Shown here in pieces: positions 4,372-46,780 of a DNA stretch of 54,876 bases; the first letter of the stretch is position 1, and the number at the start of each line of letters is the position of its first letter. The notes beneath the pieces were generated by a model, which was not told the origin of the DNA, did not search any database, and saw only the letters and a program-made list of their open reading frames with translations. The stretch covers positions 1-54,876 of the forward strand of contig JAFZRU010000060.1 of assembly GCA_017619755.1 (NCBI GenBank), given 5' to 3'. A program made the position numbers and the translations under genes. This DNA comes from Prevotella sp. GTDB taxonomy: Bacteria; Bacteroidota; Bacteroidia; Bacteroidales; Bacteroidaceae.

Positions 4372-7300
4372 ATGGCCACCAAAATCATCAACAACAGGGT
4401 AAACTTCGCCAGCGTCAAGAATCCCATGCCCACCCCGGACTTCCTTGACGTTCAACTCAAGTCCTTCCAGGACTTCCTGCAGCTCGACACCCCGCCGGAG
4501 CTGAGGAAGTATGATGGCTTGTACAAGGTGTTCGCTGAGAATTTCCCCATCACCGACACGAGAAACAACTTCGTGCTGGAGTTTCTCGACTATTTCATTG
4601 ACCCGCCGAGATATTCCATCGACGAGTGCCTGGAGCGCGGCCTCACCTACAGCGTGCCTCTCAAGGCAAAGATGAAACTCTATTGCACCGACCCGGAGCA
4701 TGTCGATTTCAAAATCGTCACATCAGACGTCTTCTTAGGCACCATACCCTATATGACAAGCAATGGCACCTTCATCATCAACGGTGCTGAGCGTGTCGTC
4801 GTCTCCCAGCTCCACCGCTCGCCCGGCGTGTTCTTCAGCCAGGGCATCCATGCCAACGGCACCGTGCTTTACTCCGCACGCATCATTCCGTTCAAGGGTT
4901 CATGGATTGAGTTCGCCACCGACATCAACAATGTTATGTATGCCTACATCGACCGTAAGAAGAAGTTGCCCGTGACCACCTTGCTCAGAGCCATCGGCTA
5001 CGAGAATGACAAGGACATCCTCAACATCTTCGACTTGGCAGAGGAGGTGAAGATCAGCCGCAAGAACCTCAAGGAGGTGGTGGGAAGGAAACTTGCCGGC
5101 CATGTGCTCAAGACGTGGACAGAGGACTTCTCCGACGAGTTCACCGGAGAGGTGGTGACCATCGAGCGCAACGAGGTGATTTTCCCACGCGAGACGCTTG
5201 TCACACAAGAGGTGGCAGAGGAAATCATCGAAAGCGGAACGACTTCGGTGCTGCTGCACAAAAACGACGACCAGTCGAGCAAGTACACCATCATCTTCAA
5301 CACGCTCTCGAAAGACCCGAGCAAGTCGGAAAAGGAAGCCGTGCAATACATCTACCGGCAGTTGCGCAATGCCGACCCGGCAGACGACGCCAGTGCACGA
5401 GAAGTCATACAAAACCTCTTCTTCTCCGACAAACGTTACGACTTGGGCGAGGTGGGACGCTACCGCATCAACAAGAAGCTCGGTCGCGACACTGACATGG
5501 ACATTCGCATCCTCACCAAGGAAGACATCATAGAAATCATCAAATACCTCATACAGCTGGTTAACTCCAACGCCACCGTGGACGATATCGACCACCTCTC
5601 CAACCGCCGCGTGCGCACCGTGGGAGAGCAGTTGGCCAACCAGTTCTCCATCGGACTGGCGCGTATGAGCCGCACCATCAGGGAGCGCATGAACGTGCGC
5701 GACAACGAGACGTTCACGCCCACCGACCTCATCAACGCCAAGACCATCTCCAGCGTCATCAACACCTTCTTCGGCACCAACCCGCTCAGCCAATTCATGG
5801 ACCAGACCAACCCGTTGGCCGAAGTGACGCACAAGAGACGTCTTTCCGCACTTGGCCCTGGAGGTCTCTCCAGAGAGAGGGCAGGTTTCGAGGTGCGCGA
5901 CGTGCACTACACACACTACGGACGCCTGTGCCCCATCGAGAGCCCCGAGGGTCCCAACATCGGCCTTATCTCGTCGCTCTGCGTCTATGCCACCATCAAC
6001 GAACTGGGCTTCATCGAGACACCTTATAGGAAGGTCACCGACGAGGTGGTTGACTTGGACAACGACCATGTGGTTTACATGACCGCCGAGGAAGAGTCGG
6101 AGCATTACATCGGGCAGGGCAACGCGCCCCTGCGCGACGACGGAACCTTCATTCGCGACGTGGTGAAATGCCGTCTCGACGCTGACTTCCCCGTCGTGCC
6201 ACCATCCAACGTCTCGTTCATGGATGTCTCGCCACAACAGATAGCATCCGTTTCGGCTGCTCTCATTCCGTTCCTCGAGCACGATGACGGTCACCGCGCA
6301 CTCATGGGATGTAACATGATGAGGCAGGCCGTTCCGCTGCTGCACAACGACGCACCCATTGTGGGCACTGGTTTGGAGAAGCAGGTGTGCGAGGACTCGC
6401 GTACGATGATCGTCGCAGAGGGTGAGGGCGTCATCGAGTTCGTCGATGCCACCACCATTCGCATCCTCTACGACCGCACGGAGGACGAGGAGTTCGTCAG
6501 CTTCGACGAGCCTACCAAGGAATACCGCATTCCAAAGTTCCGCCGCACCAACCAGAACATGACCATCGACCTGAAACCCATCTGCAACAAGGGCGACCGC
6601 GTTCACAAGGGACAGATTCTCACCGAGGGTTATGCCACGGAGAATGGCGAACTGGCCTTGGGACGCAACCTGCTCGTGGCCTATATGCCATGGAAGGGAT
6701 ACAACTATGAGGATGCCATCGTGCTTTCCGAGAGGCTTGTCAGGGAAGATGTCCTCACCAGCGTGCACGTGGACGAATACCAACTCGACGTCAGGGAGAC
6801 GAAAAGAGGTATGGAGGAGTTCACGTCCGACATTCCCAACGTCAGCGAGGAAGCCACCAAGGACCTCGACATCAACGGCATCATCCGTGTTGGTGCACGC
6901 GTGGAGCCGGGAGACATCCTCATTGGAAAAATCTCACCCAAGGGTGAGAGCGACCCCTCGCCGGAGGAGAAACTGCTTCGTGCCATCTTCGGTGACAAGG
7001 CCGGCGATGTGAAGGACTCATCACTCAAGGCCAACCCATCGCTCAGCGGTGTCGTCATCGACAAAAAACTCTTCTCACGCGCTGTCAAAACACGTGAGTC
7101 GAGAAAACTCGACAAGGTGCAGCTCGCCAAAATCGACGAGGAATACGAGGCCAAGAACGAAGACCTTAAGGACATCCTCGTTGACAAACTCCTCAAACTC
7201 ATCAAGGGGAAGATTTCACAGGGCGTGAAGGACTATGCCGACACTGAAATCATCACCAAAGGCTCTCACTTCACCGTCGTCAACCTCAAGAACCTCAACT

Positions 7301-39614: not shown

Positions 39615-41117
39615 ATGATTACAGGCGAGATAAAATCGAAGATAGACCTAATATGGGAGGACTTCTGGACGGGTGGCATCACCAACAGCATCAGCGTGTT
39701 GGAGCAGATGACCTATCTGTTCTTTATGAAGATGCTCGACGATGCGCAGGTCAAGGCCGAGAGCAATGCCAACCTGCTTGGCACTACGCTGGTGAACCCC
39801 ACCTTCCCTGTCGGCCAGAGCTGGCACAACCCGGAAACAGACCAGGACATACCCTATGAGCGGCTGCGCTGGCATGTGTTCAAAAACGACGATGGCACGT
39901 CGATGTTCCATAATGTGCGCATGAATGTGTTCCCGTTCATCAAGAACCTGAACAGCGGGCGCGAGTCGGCCTACAGCCGCTTCATGGAGAACGCCACCTT
40001 CCTCATTCCCAATGCCCGAACCTTGGTGAAGGTCGTGGAGGGCGTGGATGGTCTCGACATGAACAACCGCGACACGATGGGCGATGTGTATGAGTATGTT
40101 TTGGGAAAAATGGCTGCAAGCGGCACCAACGGTCAGTTCCGCACACCCAGGCATATTATCCACATGATGGTGGAACTGATGAAACCCAATATGAAGGATG
40201 TCATCTGCGACCCGGCCATGGGTAGCGCTGGCTTCATCGTGGAGAGTGCCAAGTACATCAAGAGCCACTATGCGCAGGAACTGATGCGACGTGAGAACCA
40301 GGAGCACTACCGCAACCACATGTTTCATGGCTTCGATACCGACCAGACCATGCTCCGCATCGGAGCCATGAACCTGATGCTCCACAATGTAGATAATCCC
40401 GACATAGAGTATAAGGACAGCCTCTCTACCGACAACACCGATGCCGAGCGTTACACGCTATGCCTTGCCAATCCACCCTTTGCCGGCAACATCGACAAGG
40501 AGGTTATTGCCAAGTCGCTCACCAAGATTGCTCCTACAAAGAAAACGGAACTGCTTTTTGTGGCTCTCTTCACTCGTATGCTCCAGTTGGGAGGCCGCTG
40601 TGCCAGCATCGTTCCCGACGGCGTTCTGTTCGGTACATCGTCGGGCCACAAGGCCGTGCGCAAGGAACTGGTCGATAATCAGCGGCTGCAAGCCGTCATC
40701 TCCATGCCCAGCGGTGTGTTCAAGCCCTACGCTGGAGTAAGCACCGCTATTCTCATCTTCACCAAGACTAACAGCGGCGGCACGGATAAGGTGTGGTTCT
40801 ATGACATGCGAGCCGACGGTTTCTCGCTCGACGACAAGCGCAATCCCATCAACGACAACGATATTCCCGACATCATCCGTCGCTATGAGCACTTGGAAGA
40901 TGAAGCCACCCGCACCCGCAAAGACCAGTCGTTCTTAGTTCCTGTCGATGAGATTCGCCAGAACGACTACGACCTCTCCATCAATAAATATAAAGAAGTA
41001 GAGCGGGTGAAGGTGGAGTATGAGCCGACGGCAACCATCCTCGCCCGGTTGGAAGAGACGGAGCAACAGATACAGCAAGGGTTGAACGAACTGAAAGAAA
41101 TGTTGAAGGAGGAATAA
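39615..41117 (+). CDS. hsdM: Type I restriction-modification system, methyltransferase subunit
   Basis: HsdM supplies the N6-adenine methyltransferase activity of the type I complex. The 500-residue product has an N-terminal helical domain (IDLIWEDFWTGGITNSISVLEQMTYLFFMKMLDD), the SAM-binding motif DPAMGSAGF (about residue 198) and the catalytic motif NPPF (about residue 286, in LANPPFAG). The segment GQFRTPRHIIHMMVELMKP is characteristic. A TAAATTTG element lies upstream. It leads the operon that continues with hsdS, a three-gene DUF cassette and hsdR. Confidence 0.95.
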   Translation: MITGEIKSKIDLIWEDFWTGGITNSISVLEQMTYLFFMKMLDDAQVKAESNANLLGTTLVNPTFPVGQSWHNPETDQDIPYERLRWHVFKNDDGTSMFHNVRMNVFPFIKNLNSGRESAYSRFMENATFLIPNARTLVKVVEGVDGLDMNNRDTMGDVYEYVLGKMAASGTNGQFRTPRHIIHMMVELMKPNMKDVICDPAMGSAGFIVESAKYIKSHYAQELMRRENQEHYRNHMFHGFDTDQTMLRIGAMNLMLHNVDNPDIEYKDSLSTDNTDAERYTLCLANPPFAGNIDKEVIAKSLTKIAPTKKTELLFVALFTRMLQLGGRCASIVPDGVLFGTSSGHKAVRKELVDNQRLQAVISMPSGVFKPYAGVSTAILIFTKTNSGGTDKVWFYDMRADGFSLDDKRNPINDNDIPDIIRRYEHLEDEATRTRKDQSFLVPVDEIRQNDYDLSINKYKEVERVKVEYEPTATILARLEETEQQIQQGLNELKEMLKEE

Positions 41118-41182
41118 TTGGATGGGTATTTAGGGTGGCGACATTAAAAAATGATTAACTTTGCAAATAAAATCAATTACAG

Positions 41183-41323
41183 ATGATATTCTTAAACCAA
41201 TTTCACAAAGAGGCAGTGGAGAGGAAAATGCGGAAAATAGCAGAATCTATGAAGTCGCCGATGAACTCTATCGACGCTGCAAACTATATGAAGAGCAATT
41301 TCGAGATGGCCAAGAATATGTAA
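41183..41323 (+). CDS. Possible small ORF between hsdM and hsdS
   Basis: Two overlapping short frames fill this gap. The frame given here starts with ATG and encodes 46 residues (MIFLNQFHKEAVERKMRKIAESMKSPMNSIDAANYMKSNFEMAKNM). The alternative, 41161-41352, has only a TTG start and encodes 63 residues ending in VTKRKEEENG, and it overlaps the hsdS start by 8 bp. A TAACTTTG element at 41156-41163 would place a transcript start just before the ATG. I recognise neither product. It may be a real small gene or a decayed fragment. Confidence 0.3.
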   Translation: MIFLNQFHKEAVERKMRKIAESMKSPMNSIDAANYMKSNFEMAKNM

Positions 41324-41344
41324 CCAAAAGAAAGGAGGAGGAAA

Positions 41345-42448
41345 ATGGATAGAACGAAGTGGGAAAGGAAACGGATAGAAGAGGTCTGTGAAAAGGCATC
41401 TTCAAACATAGTACTCAATAAGATTGAAGGCAATGTTGGGGATTATCCTCTTTACGGTGCCAGTGGCTATGTAAAGTCTGTTGACTTCTTCCACATGGAA
41501 CGGCCATACGTAGGCATCGTGAAGGATGGGGCTGGTGTCGGACGTGTTGGCATTTATCCCGCAAGGTCATCGTTAGTGGGGACGATGCAGTATATCCTTC
41601 CTAAGAAAGACTGCTTGCTTCAATATCTGTCATACGGACTACAGTCACTTCATCTTGACAAGCATATGTCGGGTGCCACCATACCACATATCTATTTCAA
41701 GAACTACGGAAAGGAAATGATTCCCTTTCCGCCTCTCCCCCATCAGAAGGCCATCGTTGCCGAACTTGACAAACTTAACGATGTGATTGCCTTGAAGCGC
41801 AAGCAACTGGCAGACCTCGACAGCCTTGCTCAGTCACTTTTCTACGAAATGTTTGGTGATCCACAGGTTAATGAGAAAGGATGGGAGGTGAAGAAACTTG
41901 GAGAAGTGTGTGAAATAGGAACTGGAAGTACCCCGGACCGGAATAACAATTCATATTATAAAGGAAATAATCCATGGGTAAAATCAACAGAAGTATGTAA
42001 TTGTGCCATATACGATGTGCAAGAACACATTAGCGACGATGCTCTGATAAAAACAAACTGTAGATTATATCCTATAAATACCATTTTGATGGCAATGTAT
42101 GGTCAAGGAAAAACTCGCGGGCAAATTGCAATTCTGAAAATTGTTGCAAGCACAAATCAGGCTGTTGCTGCAATATTGCCTTCTAATTGTTTTAAACCTG
42201 AGTATCTTTATGAGCACTTACGTCTAATGTATGAGAATATTAGATTGATGGCAAGAGGCGGTAACCAAGCAAATTTAAATTTGTCCCTTGTTAAATCTAT
42301 AAAAGTAATGCTTCCTCCTCTTCCCCTCCAGCAATCTTTCGCCGCAAAGATTACGAAGATAGAGGCCGAGAAGCAGCGTGTAAAGTCCTCTCTTAAAGAC
42401 TTGGAAACTCTGTTGGCATCACGTATGCAATACTGGTTTGACAACTAA
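41345..42448 (+). CDS. hsdS: Type I restriction-modification system, specificity subunit
   Basis: HsdS chooses the bipartite DNA target. The 367-residue product has two target-recognition halves: residues 1-130 (WERKRIEEVCEKASS...GNVGDYPLYGASGYVKSVD) and about 175-325 (GWEVKKLGEVCEIGTGSTPDRNNNSYYKGNNPWVKSTEV). Each is followed by a conserved helix: PPLPHQKAIVAELDKLNDVIALKRKQLADLDSL (about 133-165) and PPLPLQQSFAAKITKIEAEKQRVKSSLKDLETLL (to the C terminus). The first half has normal GC, whereas the second recognition domain is much richer in AT, as if it had been exchanged. A strong ribosome site (AGGAGGAGG) precedes the ATG. Confidence 0.93.
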   Translation: MDRTKWERKRIEEVCEKASSNIVLNKIEGNVGDYPLYGASGYVKSVDFFHMERPYVGIVKDGAGVGRVGIYPARSSLVGTMQYILPKKDCLLQYLSYGLQSLHLDKHMSGATIPHIYFKNYGKEMIPFPPLPHQKAIVAELDKLNDVIALKRKQLADLDSLAQSLFYEMFGDPQVNEKGWEVKKLGEVCEIGTGSTPDRNNNSYYKGNNPWVKSTEVCNCAIYDVQEHISDDALIKTNCRLYPINTILMAMYGQGKTRGQIAILKIVASTNQAVAAILPSNCFKPEYLYEHLRLMYENIRLMARGGNQANLNLSLVKSIKVMLPPLPLQQSFAAKITKIEAEKQRVKSSLKDLETLLASRMQYWFDN

Positions 42449-42479
42449 TTGTAATTGATAACACAAAAGAAGAAATATA

Positions 42480-42698
42480 ATGGATAAGAAAACTCTGGAG
42501 TTTGTTACCTACTGCATCGGCAAGCTTTCACATGAGCTGCACATGTCGCAGAAAGAAATCTATGGCCGCCTAAAGCGGTCTGGCATTCTCTATGACTATA
42601 TCGTGCCTTCCTACGACGTGCTGCATACCTTCAGTTCACGTTACTTGATGGAAGACCTTACAGAGTACATGAAGGAGAAAGGAGTGTTGGCATTATGA
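42480..42698 (+). CDS. DUF3791 family small protein (first copy)
   Basis: This 72-residue protein matches the DUF3791 pattern: LEFVTYCIGKLSHELHMSQKEIYGRLKRSGILYDYIVPSYDVLHTFSSRYLMEDLTEYMKEKG. DUF3791 genes are commonly next to DUF3990 genes, as here. The next start overlaps its stop by 4 bp (ATGA). It lies 31 bp after hsdS. As the small partner of an ADP-ribosyltransferase-like protein it is a plausible antitoxin; that is inference from context. Confidence 0.82.
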   Translation: MDKKTLEFVTYCIGKLSHELHMSQKEIYGRLKRSGILYDYIVPSYDVLHTFSSRYLMEDLTEYMKEKGVLAL

Positions 42699-43165
42699 AA
42701 CTCTATCATTCATCGTTTGTCGTGGTGAGTCAGCCCGACACGATACACTCACGTGACTACCTTGACTTCGGCAAAGGTTTCTATCTCACCTCTATCTACG
42801 ATCAGGCCGTCCGCTATGCGGAACGATTCAAGCGTCGTGGCAGGGATGCTTGGCTCAACACTTACGAGTTGAACTACCAACCGGAAGATTGGAAGATTTT
42901 GGCCTTTGAAGCCTATGATGTCGCATGGCTGGACTTTGTATCAGCCTGTCGTGCAGGCAATGATGTAAGCGACTACGACATGGTAGTAGGCGGTATTGCT
43001 AACGATCGTGTCATCCTGACGCTTGACAGATACTTCGCCGGAGAAATTTCACAGGAAGAAGCTCTCGGATTACTAAGATTCGAGAAGCCAAACATTCAGT
43101 ATTGTATTCGTTCGGAAAGAATGATTAGCCAGTGTCTCACGTATTTAGAGAGCAAGGAACTATGA
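42695..43165 (+). CDS. DUF3990 family protein, ADP-ribosyltransferase-like
   Basis: The 156-residue product matches DUF3990, a family placed in the ADP-ribosyltransferase clan. Visible ART-like features are an N-terminal LYHSS (residues 3-7), DFGKGFYLTSIYDQAVRYA (24-42), YDMVVGGIANDRV (94-106) and the C-terminal QYCIRSE (135-141). A bacterial enzyme of this fold would use NAD to modify a protein, nucleic acid or small molecule. It overlaps the DUF3791 genes on both sides by 4 bp, so the three proteins are produced in fixed ratio. Most likely a toxin of a toxin-antitoxin-like module; activity is not proven. Confidence 0.82.
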   Translation: MKLYHSSFVVVSQPDTIHSRDYLDFGKGFYLTSIYDQAVRYAERFKRRGRDAWLNTYELNYQPEDWKILAFEAYDVAWLDFVSACRAGNDVSDYDMVVGGIANDRVILTLDRYFAGEISQEEALGLLRFEKPNIQYCIRSERMISQCLTYLESKEL

Positions 43166-43380
43166 GCGAAGAGTCCAAACAGATACTAAGGAGTGCGCAA
43201 TGCGCAAGAATCATTCTTTGCATCAGCGAGATGTATAATGTGTCTGTACCAGAGGCTACAGACATCTACTATGAGTCGGAAACGGCAAACCTTATAGAAG
43301 AGGGTGTTGCCGATCTGCATTGCCGCAGTGACAAATATCTTGCTACTCTTGTTTGGGAAGAGCACCAAGAAAAGAACTAA
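43162..43380 (+). CDS. DUF3791-like small protein (second copy)
   Basis: This 72-residue protein resembles DUF3791 members of the type that contain YxxxxVPEATDIYYESETANLIEEGVADLHCRSDKYLATLVWEE. It is the same length as the first DUF3791 protein but clearly diverged from it. ATG at 43162 is fixed by the ATGA overlap with the DUF3990 stop; an upstream in-frame ATG at 43132 lies inside DUF3990. hsdR begins 4 bases after its stop, which ties the cassette to the restriction operon. Confidence 0.75.
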   Translation: MSEESKQILRSAQCARIILCISEMYNVSVPEATDIYYESETANLIEEGVADLHCRSDKYLATLVWEEHQEKN

Positions 43381-43384
43381 TGAT

Positions 43385-46300
43385 ATGGGAAACTTCGATT
43401 TCATCAAAACGGTTCCTGAGACCGAAGAACTGCAGGAGTATTGCAAGCAGGCAGAACGCACGGCACAGATAAGTCCAAAGCTGAGCGTGATGAACTGCCG
43501 CTGGGCATTGGAGTGGATGGTGATCCAGCTGCTGCAGATGAAGAACGTCAACTGTGACGGACTGTCGCTGAGCCAGATGATAGATCACGAAGAGTTCCGT
43601 ATGTTCATTGGTGCCGACCCCATCTTTTGGCGTGATATAAAATATGTGCGCACGATGGGCAACCGTGGAGCGCACATAGAACAAGACCCCACGAAGCGCA
43701 TCACACCGCAGCAGGCCCTCTACACGCTGATAGACTTGCACTATGTGCTGGGCTATATCCTGCAGTCGCTACGGTTAGTAAATCGCATCAAACCGTTTGA
43801 CCGCGACCTGGTTGGCAAGCGCGAGCGTATTGCCGTGGTTCAGCCCATCAAGGAGCCAGAGCCGAAGCCACAGTTTCAGGCGCAGGTGCCACCGACGAAT
43901 GTGGCTGCGCCGAGAGAAGACCTCCATCTGCCAGAGAGTCCACTATCAGAGGCGGAGACCCGCCACCAGTTCATCGATATGATGCTCACCGAAGCCGGAT
44001 GGGAAGTAGCCCCCCTCGATACCCCCGAAGGAGGGACGATGAAAGGCGTAGTAAAACCATCGTGTGCCTGCGTAGAGATAGAGGTGACGGGAATGCCCGA
44101 CGCACCATCGGGCAAGGGCTATGCCGACTACGTGCTGTTCGATGCCGCCCTGCGCCCCTTGGCTGTCATCGAGGCCAAGCGCACCTCGGTGAATGTGGAG
44201 AAAGGCCGTCAGCAAGCCAAGCTCTATGCCGACTGTCTGGAACAGCGTTATGGCGTGAGGCCCGTCATCTACACCAGCAATGGTTTTACCACAAGAGTCA
44301 TTGACGGACTGGGCTATCCTGAGCGTGAGGTGTTTGGCTTCCACTCGGAAGAAGACCTAATGCTGCTGCACCAACGCCGTCGGGAGCGTCGCCGGATAGC
44401 CGACCTGAGCATCCGCGATGACATCACCAACCGCGAATACCAGAAACGTGCCATCCGCAGCGTGTGCGACCACCTGCAGAAGATGCACCGCTCCTCGCTC
44501 ATCATCATGGCAACAGGTACGGGCAAGACCCGTGTGGCCGTCTCGTTGACCGACCTGCTGATGCGCAATAAATGGGTGAAAAACGTGCTGTTCCTTGCCG
44601 ACCGAACATCATTGGTGAAGCAGGCCAAGACCAAGGGCTTCGCGAAGTACCTGACCGATGCGACCTTCTGCGAGTTGAACGAGCAGGGGCCGGATAGCAA
44701 ATCCGACCCAACTGTGCTCAATGCCCGTGTGATGCTCTCCACCTATCAGACCATGATTAACTATGTGGAAGCCGACGAAAAACCTTTTTCCATTGGCCGT
44801 TTCGACCTGATTATCATCGACGAAGCCCACCGCTCGGTGTTCGGCAAATACGGTGCCATCTTCGACTACTTCGACGCCTTCCTCATCGGACTGACGGCAA
44901 CGCCACGCGACGAGGTGGCCCGTTCGACCTACAACCTGTTGCAGATGGACCCTGAGAACACTTTCGCCTACGAATATGAGGAAGCCATCCGTGACGGCTA
45001 CTTGGTGCCTTATCACGGTTTCGTCCGTAAGAGTCAGATACTGGAAAAGGGAATAGAGGTGGCTACGCTGGCTGCCGAAGACAGAGAGCAGTTACAGCCC
45101 GTGTTCGACTACGAAAAGACGAAATACGAGATAGACCCCAATGAGGATTACGAGCGCAACATTGAGAGCAAAGAGATATTCAGCTACATCTTCAACATAG
45201 ACACCATCGACAAGATGTTGCAGGATCTGATGGAGAACGGATTGAAGGTGCAGAGCGGCAACAAGATAGGAAAGAGCATCATCTTCTGCTACAACCACCA
45301 ACATGCCGAACTGGTGGTGGAACGCTTTGGTGCGCTCTACCCGGAGTTTGGCCCTGAATTCTGCCGACTCATCGACAACTATGTGGAGCACTCACAGACG
45401 CTCATCGACAGCTTTGAGGAGCGTGACAGTCTGCCGCAGGTGTCGGTCTCGGTGTATATGCTCGATACAGGCATCGATGTGCCTGACATCCTGAACCTGG
45501 TGTTCTTCAAGCCCGTGCTCAGTGGCATCCGCTTCAAGCAGATGATTGGACGTGGCACACGACTGTCACCCGGCATCTTCGGCTACGGGCAGGACAAGCG
45601 GGAGTTCTATATCTTCGACTGGTGCGGTAACTTTGAGTACTTCAAGGAGAATCCCAACGGCACAGAGAGTGTGGCTACACAATCGCTGGCCGAGCGGCTC
45701 TTTTGTATGCGAGTGGACATTGCTGTGGCATTCCAGACGGCTGAGCATCAAGTGTCGGATTGCAAATCCGGCACAACAGAAGAGAAAGCCTTGCACGACC
45801 AGTTGAAAGCACTGCTGTTCCAACAAGTCGGCGAAATCAAGGACACACACATTAGTACGCGCCGCGTATGGCCGACGGTGGTAAAATACCGCGACAAGGC
45901 AGCATGGACCTGTCTCTCTGCCGTTGACGCTCAGGAACTGAAAGACATCATTTCGCCGCTCATCGTCAAGAAGATAGATGATGAGAGTGCTGAGAAGTTC
46001 GACCTGATACTGCTGAAGATAGAATTGGGCAAACTCATAAAGGAAGTTGATACTATTCCTTCCGAGAACCGTGTCTTTATGATTGCCAAGAAACTGCAAG
46101 AAAAGGCTTCCATACCAGTCATAGCCCAGCATCTTGATATGATAAAGGCCGTGCAACGAAGAGGATTCTTTGAGAATGCCTCTATGTCGATGTTGGAACG
46201 AGTACGTCAGGAGTTGCGTGAGTTGGTGAAGAATCTGGAAAGCAGTCAGTCAAAGCAGTTCACATTGAACATTGAGGACATTGTTACCGATGGTGGCGAG

Positions 46301-46780
46301 GCAGCTGCCGTCAGCATGAGCGGCAACACCTACAAGCAACGTGTGCTGGACTATCTGAGTGAGCATCGTGACGATGCCGTGTTCCAGAAGATTTTCCATT
46401 TAGAGCAGCTGTCGGCTGATGACATCAGCCAGTTGGAGCATATTATGTGGGAGGAACTGGGCAGTCGTGAGGAGTATGTGCGTTACACACAGTCCGAGAA
46501 CATGAACGTGGCCATGTTCATTCGCTCTGTCATCAAGGTTGACCGCCAACTGGCACTACAGAAGTTCACCGAGTTCTTGAACGGTTCTACGCTGAACGCC
46601 CTGCAGATGGACTATCTGAAGGACATCATCTCCTACGTCTGCGAGAATGGTGACATAGAGCCGCAGACGCTGATGAGCGTTTCGCCATTCAGCGACATCA
46701 ACATCATCGACCTCTTTGATGACAAGGCCGTCCACGTAGGCAAGTATGTAAATTTGCTGCACCATGTAATAACTGCATAA
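43385..46780 (+). CDS. hsdR: Type I restriction-modification system, restriction subunit
   Basis: HsdR is the DNA translocase and nuclease of the type I complex. The 1131-residue product has an N-terminal DUF4145-like domain (LQEYCKQAERTAQISPKLSVMNCRWALEWMVIQLLQ), the nuclease core with VIEAKR (about residue 261), the SF2 helicase motifs MATGTGKTR (about 374) and DEAH (about 478), LTATPRDE, MLDTGIDVPDI and QMIGRGTRLSPG, and a C-terminal EcoEI-type region. ATG 43385 follows the previous stop by 4 bases. All key motifs are intact, so the enzyme is probably active. Confidence 0.95.
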   Translation: MGNFDFIKTVPETEELQEYCKQAERTAQISPKLSVMNCRWALEWMVIQLLQMKNVNCDGLSLSQMIDHEEFRMFIGADPIFWRDIKYVRTMGNRGAHIEQDPTKRITPQQALYTLIDLHYVLGYILQSLRLVNRIKPFDRDLVGKRERIAVVQPIKEPEPKPQFQAQVPPTNVAAPREDLHLPESPLSEAETRHQFIDMMLTEAGWEVAPLDTPEGGTMKGVVKPSCACVEIEVTGMPDAPSGKGYADYVLFDAALRPLAVIEAKRTSVNVEKGRQQAKLYADCLEQRYGVRPVIYTSNGFTTRVIDGLGYPEREVFGFHSEEDLMLLHQRRRERRRIADLSIRDDITNREYQKRAIRSVCDHLQKMHRSSLIIMATGTGKTRVAVSLTDLLMRNKWVKNVLFLADRTSLVKQAKTKGFAKYLTDATFCELNEQGPDSKSDPTVLNARVMLSTYQTMINYVEADEKPFSIGRFDLIIIDEAHRSVFGKYGAIFDYFDAFLIGLTATPRDEVARSTYNLLQMDPENTFAYEYEEAIRDGYLVPYHGFVRKSQILEKGIEVATLAAEDREQLQPVFDYEKTKYEIDPNEDYERNIESKEIFSYIFNIDTIDKMLQDLMENGLKVQSGNKIGKSIIFCYNHQHAELVVERFGALYPEFGPEFCRLIDNYVEHSQTLIDSFEERDSLPQVSVSVYMLDTGIDVPDILNLVFFKPVLSGIRFKQMIGRGTRLSPGIFGYGQDKREFYIFDWCGNFEYFKENPNGTESVATQSLAERLFCMRVDIAVAFQTAEHQVSDCKSGTTEEKALHDQLKALLFQQVGEIKDTHISTRRVWPTVVKYRDKAAWTCLSAVDAQELKDIISPLIVKKIDDESAEKFDLILLKIELGKLIKEVDTIPSENRVFMIAKKLQEKASIPVIAQHLDMIKAVQRRGFFENASMSMLERVRQELRELVKNLESSQSKQFTLNIEDIVTDGGEAAAVSMSGNTYKQRVLDYLSEHRDDAVFQKIFHLEQLSADDISQLEHIMWEELGSREEYVRYTQSENMNVAMFIRSVIKVDRQLALQKFTEFLNGSTLNALQMDYLKDIISYVCENGDIEPQTLMSVSPFSDINIIDLFDDKAVHVGKYVNLLHHVITA

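Follow-up and report, generated by a model that had tools for sequence, protein, structure and literature searches.

A DUF3791-DUF3990 cassette matching the phage defence candidate PDC-M13 lies inside a type I restriction operon of Prevotella sp.

The window analysed here, a stretch of 54,876 nucleotides from Prevotella sp. (contig JAFZRU010000060.1), is contig 8 within a 3.7 Mb genome. It carries a cassette of three small genes, referred to as A, B and C, between hsdS and hsdR of a type I restriction-modification (R-M) operon. The three genes match the A, B and C models of PDC-M13, a phage defence candidate (PDC) in PADLOC-DB v2.0.0, and most likely encode a toxin using nicotinamide adenine dinucleotide (NAD) with two small antidote-like partners. 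The trio is found mostly outside restriction operons and has entered such operons on several occasions. The features of the locus are as follows.

39615..41117, + strand: hsdM, type I methyltransferase subunit of the host operon (N6_Mtase 233.8 bits, HsdM_N 46 bits)
41161..41352, + strand: open reading frame (ORF) of 63 amino acids with a TTG start in the hsdM/hsdS interval, which may not be a gene (ORF list; no family at cut-off)
41345..42448, + strand: hsdS, specificity subunit of the host operon (Methylase_S 138.5 bits, two stretches)
42480..42698, + strand: gene A, DUF3791, 72 amino acids, putative antidote or regulator (Pfam PF12668, PADLOC, AlphaFold2)
42695..43165, + strand: gene B, DUF3990, 156 amino acids, predicted ADP-ribosyltransferase fold, putative toxin (Pfam; conserved H5, Y30, Q135)
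43162..43380, + strand: gene C, 72 amino acids, remote DUF3791 relative, putative second antidote or partner (PADLOC; profile match to A)
43385..46780, + strand: hsdR, restriction subunit of the host operon (ResIII 134 bits, HSDR_N and EcoEI_R_C in Pfam; REase_I in PADLOC)

Genes A, B and C are adjacent, with ATGA overlaps at both the A-B and the B-C junction, and are separated by 31 bp from hsdS and, after the stop codon of C, by 4 bp from hsdR; this arrangement agrees with the coordinates given in an earlier note on this DNA. Through Pfam and PADLOC, hsdM, hsdS and hsdR were identified together on one strand, as in a type I R-M operon, and the 63-amino-acid ORF overlaps hsdS by 8 bp. Sigma-70-like and terminator-like sites were looked for on the + strand of the hsdS-hsdR interval and none was listed; the Bacteroidota -33/-7 pattern, looked for there at one fixed spacing, was not observed either. 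The cassette and the hsd genes apparently form one operon, in which they would be co-transcribed.

Gene B was assigned to DUF3990 (PF13151) with 156.7 bits, over the Pfam cut-off of 32.2, and scored 173.7 bits against the PADLOC PDC-M13B model. DUF3990 has been placed in the ADP-ribosyl clan (PMC7955679). In the fold search, the predicted fold of B was nearest to the RES-type toxins ParT and MbcT. Alignment of B relatives (104 rows representing 96 different sequences, with some loci entered twice) revealed near-invariant H5, Y30 and Q135 residues, borne by strands 2-7, 29-32 and 135-138 of the predicted structure. In ADP-ribosyltransferases of the H-Y-E type, a His, a Tyr and an acidic or Gln residue occupy successive strands. 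The three residues are proposed as catalytic positions from this order, not from coordinates, and the third is a Gln, not a Glu. The predicted fold, the nearest folds and the coupling of the genes agree with the earlier proposal of an ADP-ribosyltransferase-type, toxin-like enzyme accompanied by small partners. Searches against NCBIfam and PHROGs, and sequence searches against solved structures, led nowhere.

Gene A was identified as DUF3791 (80 bits; 86.7 bits against PADLOC PDC-M13A), with a predicted structure of four helices at a predicted local distance difference test score of 90.3. The only other Pfam match at E 1, to KilAC, was under the cut-off at 13.5 bits, and a fold search using A led nowhere. 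Gene C scored 82.2 bits against PDC-M13C and 12.8 bits against Pfam DUF3791, where the cut-off of 25 causes it to be missed. On profile evidence C is a remote relative of DUF3791, because widened alignments of A and C match over 54 columns (Prob 93.8, E 1.8e-7; reversed control E 0.27); the comparison of narrower alignments was weak (Prob 16.5, E 0.0015). The DUF3791-DUF3990-DUF3791 composition read earlier from the locus therefore stands for A and B, while for C it becomes a remote assignment.

PDC systems are candidates obtained by "guilt-by-embedding", and most members of the core set are described as still awaiting validation (PMC12988326). With a count of 3,324, PDC-M13 ranks with the more frequent of the candidates for defence in rumen genomes (PMC13356809). 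This count and the PADLOC listing contradict the suggestion of an undescribed system. The window trio is the same as PDC-M13 in all parts, the difference being its location inside a type I R-M operon. Thus, the parts and the candidate system are already known, and an embedded ADP-ribosyltransferase toxin-antitoxin (TA) module has precedent; as far as we searched, what is new is how B decays, how nearly universal the A-B-C layout is and the finding of four separate embeddings, all described below. No experimental test of PDC-M13, or of a DUF3990/DUF3791 module, was found in the literature searched.

A search of genome contigs for B relatives yielded 63 loci; together with further genome loci, and with the window included, 158 distinct B copies were assembled, 130 of them full-length and 28 not. 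Of the full-length copies, 127 are directly preceded by A, 124 are followed by C and 122 have both; A went undetected alongside three (L049, L248, L249) and C alongside six. The double DUF3791 layout, previously regarded as unusual, is therefore the prevailing one. No natural A-B or B-C fusion was found among the loci scanned. Other genomes show the three genes in this order too, and a DNA match of 82% between the window and locus L003 spans the cassette, from the start codon of A to 5 bp past the stop of C (42480-43385); the arrangement is hence more than chance. The rest of the searched stretch (41801-44000) had no DNA match in L003, which lies outside R-M, its two scanned neighbours being metabolic genes.

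The distribution of the module is patchy. A PDC-M13B match was observed in 72 of 151 sampled genomes of the window's family, fragments included, and the PDC-M13 models gave matches in 4 and 6 of 395 genomes of the phylum. Copies were also found in 71 of 72,556 plasmid records, comprising 28 conjugative, 8 mobilizable and 35 non-mobilizable plasmids. In pBF9343, a conjugative Bacteroides plasmid (L149, 4555-6615), the order DUF3791-DUF3990-small gene is directly followed by a gene of the zeta toxin family. L035 carries a tandem pair of divergent A-B-C cassettes (833-2667), and L014 and L049 each have a second, divergent copy within about 8 kb.

Decay was examined in the copies of B that are not full-length. 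Six of the 28 were dropped for lack of flank, leaving 22 with more than 350 bp on both sides, and a gene was considered intact at a profile coverage of at least 0.8. L232-L251 were chosen because many of them are fragments, so the proportion of broken copies should not be read as a frequency. Next to the 22 broken B genes, A is intact upstream in 19, C intact downstream in 17 and both in 14; in several copies most of B is gone between an intact A and an intact C. Under a length-only lesion model, B is expected to take 69% of the lesions falling in A and B, compared with 19 of 19 observed (p = 8e-4); when the three A-less full-length copies are counted as A losses, p is about 0.02-0.05. These p-values treat copies as independent and are approximate. 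Contig 54 of the host genome itself (about 4778-5354, L114) contains a decayed second PDC-M13 with an intact A, approximately 49 residues of B and a C damaged by a stop. This pattern is as expected for a toxin beside its antidotes, although it is not proof, and natural copies that retain A and C but have lost B offer a direct way to test the toxin-antidote idea.

Expression of the cassette was approached through the region upstream of A. Of the 62 A genes in the 63-locus set, 45 have the motif TAnnTTTG in the 150 nt preceding the gene. For comparison, the motif turns up in 9% of mononucleotide shuffles and at 1 of 63 B starts; none was found upstream of A in the window or in L172. Judging from this distribution, copies often seem to have a promoter of their own, and expression of the window copy probably relies on the hsd operon. 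A simple promoter rule is opposed by L004, which is embedded and has the motif, and by L053, which is without it.

The association with restriction loci was surveyed in the flanks of 123 loci (the 63 and 60 more, window excluded; 1.95 Mb) using profiles for hsdM, hsdS and hsdR. The 60 added loci were hand-picked from the PDC-M13B match list, mostly high-ranking and away from contig ends, and do not include contig 3 of genome G113. No hsd-like gene was detected within 520 bp in 119 of the 123 loci, a count to which profiles that can miss genes (hsdR of L172 was missed and found by Pfam) and several contigs ending near the cassette may contribute. Seven R-M matches were retained in the flanks (L004, L009, L053, two in L055, L172 and L192). 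A match in L208 was dropped, as we take its protein, from the start of the sequence, to resemble an RlmL-type RNA methyltransferase. Four of the seven lie within 520 bp of the cassette (simulated p = 0.0007, with a threshold picked after seeing the data), and R-M neighbours look more frequent than chance.

The cassette lies inside a type I operon in two of the surveyed loci. L172 displays the order hsdM-hsdS-A-B-C-hsdR, the same hsdS-hsdR slot in another R-M family, with hsdR starting 11 bp after C; its hsdS is in two overlapping frames and its hsdR runs into masked bases. L004 has the order hsdM-hsdS-extra genes-A-B-C-hsdR, where the start of hsdR overlaps the stop of C by 1 bp. The extra genes of L004 (7302-9712), of 334 and 254 amino acids and without a Pfam or PADLOC match, are possibly another embedded system. 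In L009 a type IIG enzyme begins 29 bp after C, and in L053 hsdM lies about 240 bp after it. A side observation concerns L057 (10720-11808), in which the cassette is followed at 21 bp by the start of a protein with an HSDR_N_2 domain that matches PDC-S57, a single-gene candidate.

Among 393 genomes from the order, 27 have a match to the window hsdR at a threshold of E 1e-100, the window's own genome included. No cassette was found beside the 26 other hsdR loci (flanks of about 1.5 kb where the contig allows; a weak A-like match of 13.8 bits inside the hsdR frame of L128 was set aside), and a tie between the cassette and this R-M family was rejected. Inspection by eye of the 72 genomes for Methylase_S near PDC-M13B returned, among the matches listed, the window and a pair 7.6 kb apart on G113 contig 3, and missed L172; the conclusions here therefore follow the 123-locus survey.

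A further embedding was observed in plasmids of Moraxella osloensis, with the order hsdM-B-C-A-hsdS and each gene overlapping the next (three of the five records were viewed); in L146, hsdR follows 265 bp beyond. This represents a second phylum, another gene order and another slot (hsdM-hsdS). The Moraxella B, C and A, named there by position, all match PDC-M13 models. Relative to L146, identity in two other plasmids is 91-100% for A, B and C and 95-97% for hsdM and hsdR over the compared parts, but only about 44% for hsdS. The hsdS genes of L146, L147 and L252 are divergent, and in two plasmids hsdS is annotated as two half genes. This suggests specificity exchange around a stable cassette.

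A tree built from 98 B rows needs four changes to account for the embedded B genes, four in number, which form no common group; the position of the Moraxella row is unsure (long branch). The window B pairs with that of L003 (87% identity; support 100/87), and the pair shares a clade with L004, L009 and L011. Three of these five rows are R-M-linked, and five rows are too few to decide on a preference. Embedding in type I operons is rare but recurrent. The link to restriction loci that the earlier note expected in other genomes holds as recurrence (L004, L172 and the Moraxella plasmids) and fails as a rule. The recurrent embedding, across two phyla and in two different slots, makes it possible to test whether the genes act jointly with restriction or are only expressed with it.

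At a probability of about 0.6, we propose that the three genes constitute a self-contained TA-like module, PDC-M13, with B as the toxin, co-expressed here with restriction. B would be a NAD-consuming toxin of the ADP-ribosyltransferase fold, A and C would bind and restrain it, and either partner may double as a sensor or autoregulator. Loss or displacement of A or C, for example upon phage infection, would free B and arrest the cell. The module would travel as a three-gene unit and, having landed between hsdS and hsdR, would be driven by hsd operon expression. A suicide or arrest response would then be turned on along with restriction, and B need not sense restriction. A type II TA system, in which a partner protein neutralises a toxin that is harmful by itself, is suggested indirectly by the decay pattern and the coupling of the genes.

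Alternatively, the module could maintain itself, the hsd operon or a plasmid by killing cells that lose it, which we regard as rather unlikely. The plasmid copies, the patchy distribution and an insertion unit that matches the three genes are consistent with such addiction, as are copies without B yet with A and C, expected for escape; the defence listing in PADLOC and the clustering of R-M matches nearby speak against it. Addiction and defence are hardly separated by these data, and both may hold.

A specialised restriction guard, also raised in the earlier note, appears quite unlikely. Here B would be held by, or sense, the Hsd complex and be released when a phage inhibitor blocks restriction. 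PrrC, an anticodon nuclease held by the Hsd complex in the type IC operon EcoprrI, works in this way (PMC3874165, PMC12707154, PMC2610378) and is likewise a latent toxin encoded within a type I R-M operon. The shared slot of L172, the cassette directly before hsdR in L004 and the proximity of four R-M matches would fit a guard. It is not favoured because most surveyed loci have the same parts, with A, B and C nearly always present, and no detected R-M neighbour, and because the window B is closest to a copy outside R-M. The embedded B proteins are ungrouped, and the Moraxella plasmids keep the trio while hsdS differs. PrrC is held by Hsd, whereas the toxin-like gene of the window has its own small partners. 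PrrC and RloC combine an ABC-ATPase and an anticodon nuclease in one protein, and membership was ruled out by the gene sizes of 72, 156 and 72 amino acids and by the families. Similarly doubtful is a dual-lock toxin, in which A and C, two related small proteins, must both hold B and either A or C senses infection; inside restriction operons the lock would be keyed to the Hsd state, and blocked restriction would free B.

The nearest published arrangement is DarTG2, located between hsdS and hsdR within one defence operon of the RRDM island of enteropathogenic E. coli, a site its authors call a potential recombination hotspot for defence systems (PMC12255303). The likeness is an ADP-ribosylating TA module in the hsdS-hsdR slot, drawn for the window from a predicted fold and the genes; the window thereby adds another module of predicted ADP-ribosyltransferase type to this slot. 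DarT and DarG belong to other families than A, B and C, which have no DarT-domain or macrodomain Pfam match at E 1, and DarTG membership was ruled out. The island has its own repressor, RptR. The RES-Xre systems (ParST, MbcTA, Xre-RES) resemble the cassette in the predicted fold of B only. They possess a conserved R-E-S (PMC12457610) against H-Y-Q in B, and one Xre-type partner class against two DUF3791-type partners. No RES or Xre Pfam match was found for A, B or C at E 1, and membership in this group was also ruled out.

The least likely reading makes B a mild modifying enzyme, whose target could be, for example, a small molecule or a protein of the host, with A and C serving as its subunits or regulators. 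In favour of it, toxicity of B is itself a prediction, a Gln occupies the presumed position of the catalytic Glu and the fold spans many functions. Against it, decay strikes B while A and C survive, the nearest folds are TA toxins, and DUF3990 forms the C-terminal domain of Rhs5, a predicted Serratia Rhs effector (PMC4524185).

Viral sequences were considered as well. A search of viral contigs with the Moraxella B led nowhere; five unannotated phage records from human faeces (H1-H5) encode B relatives with 28-43% identity.
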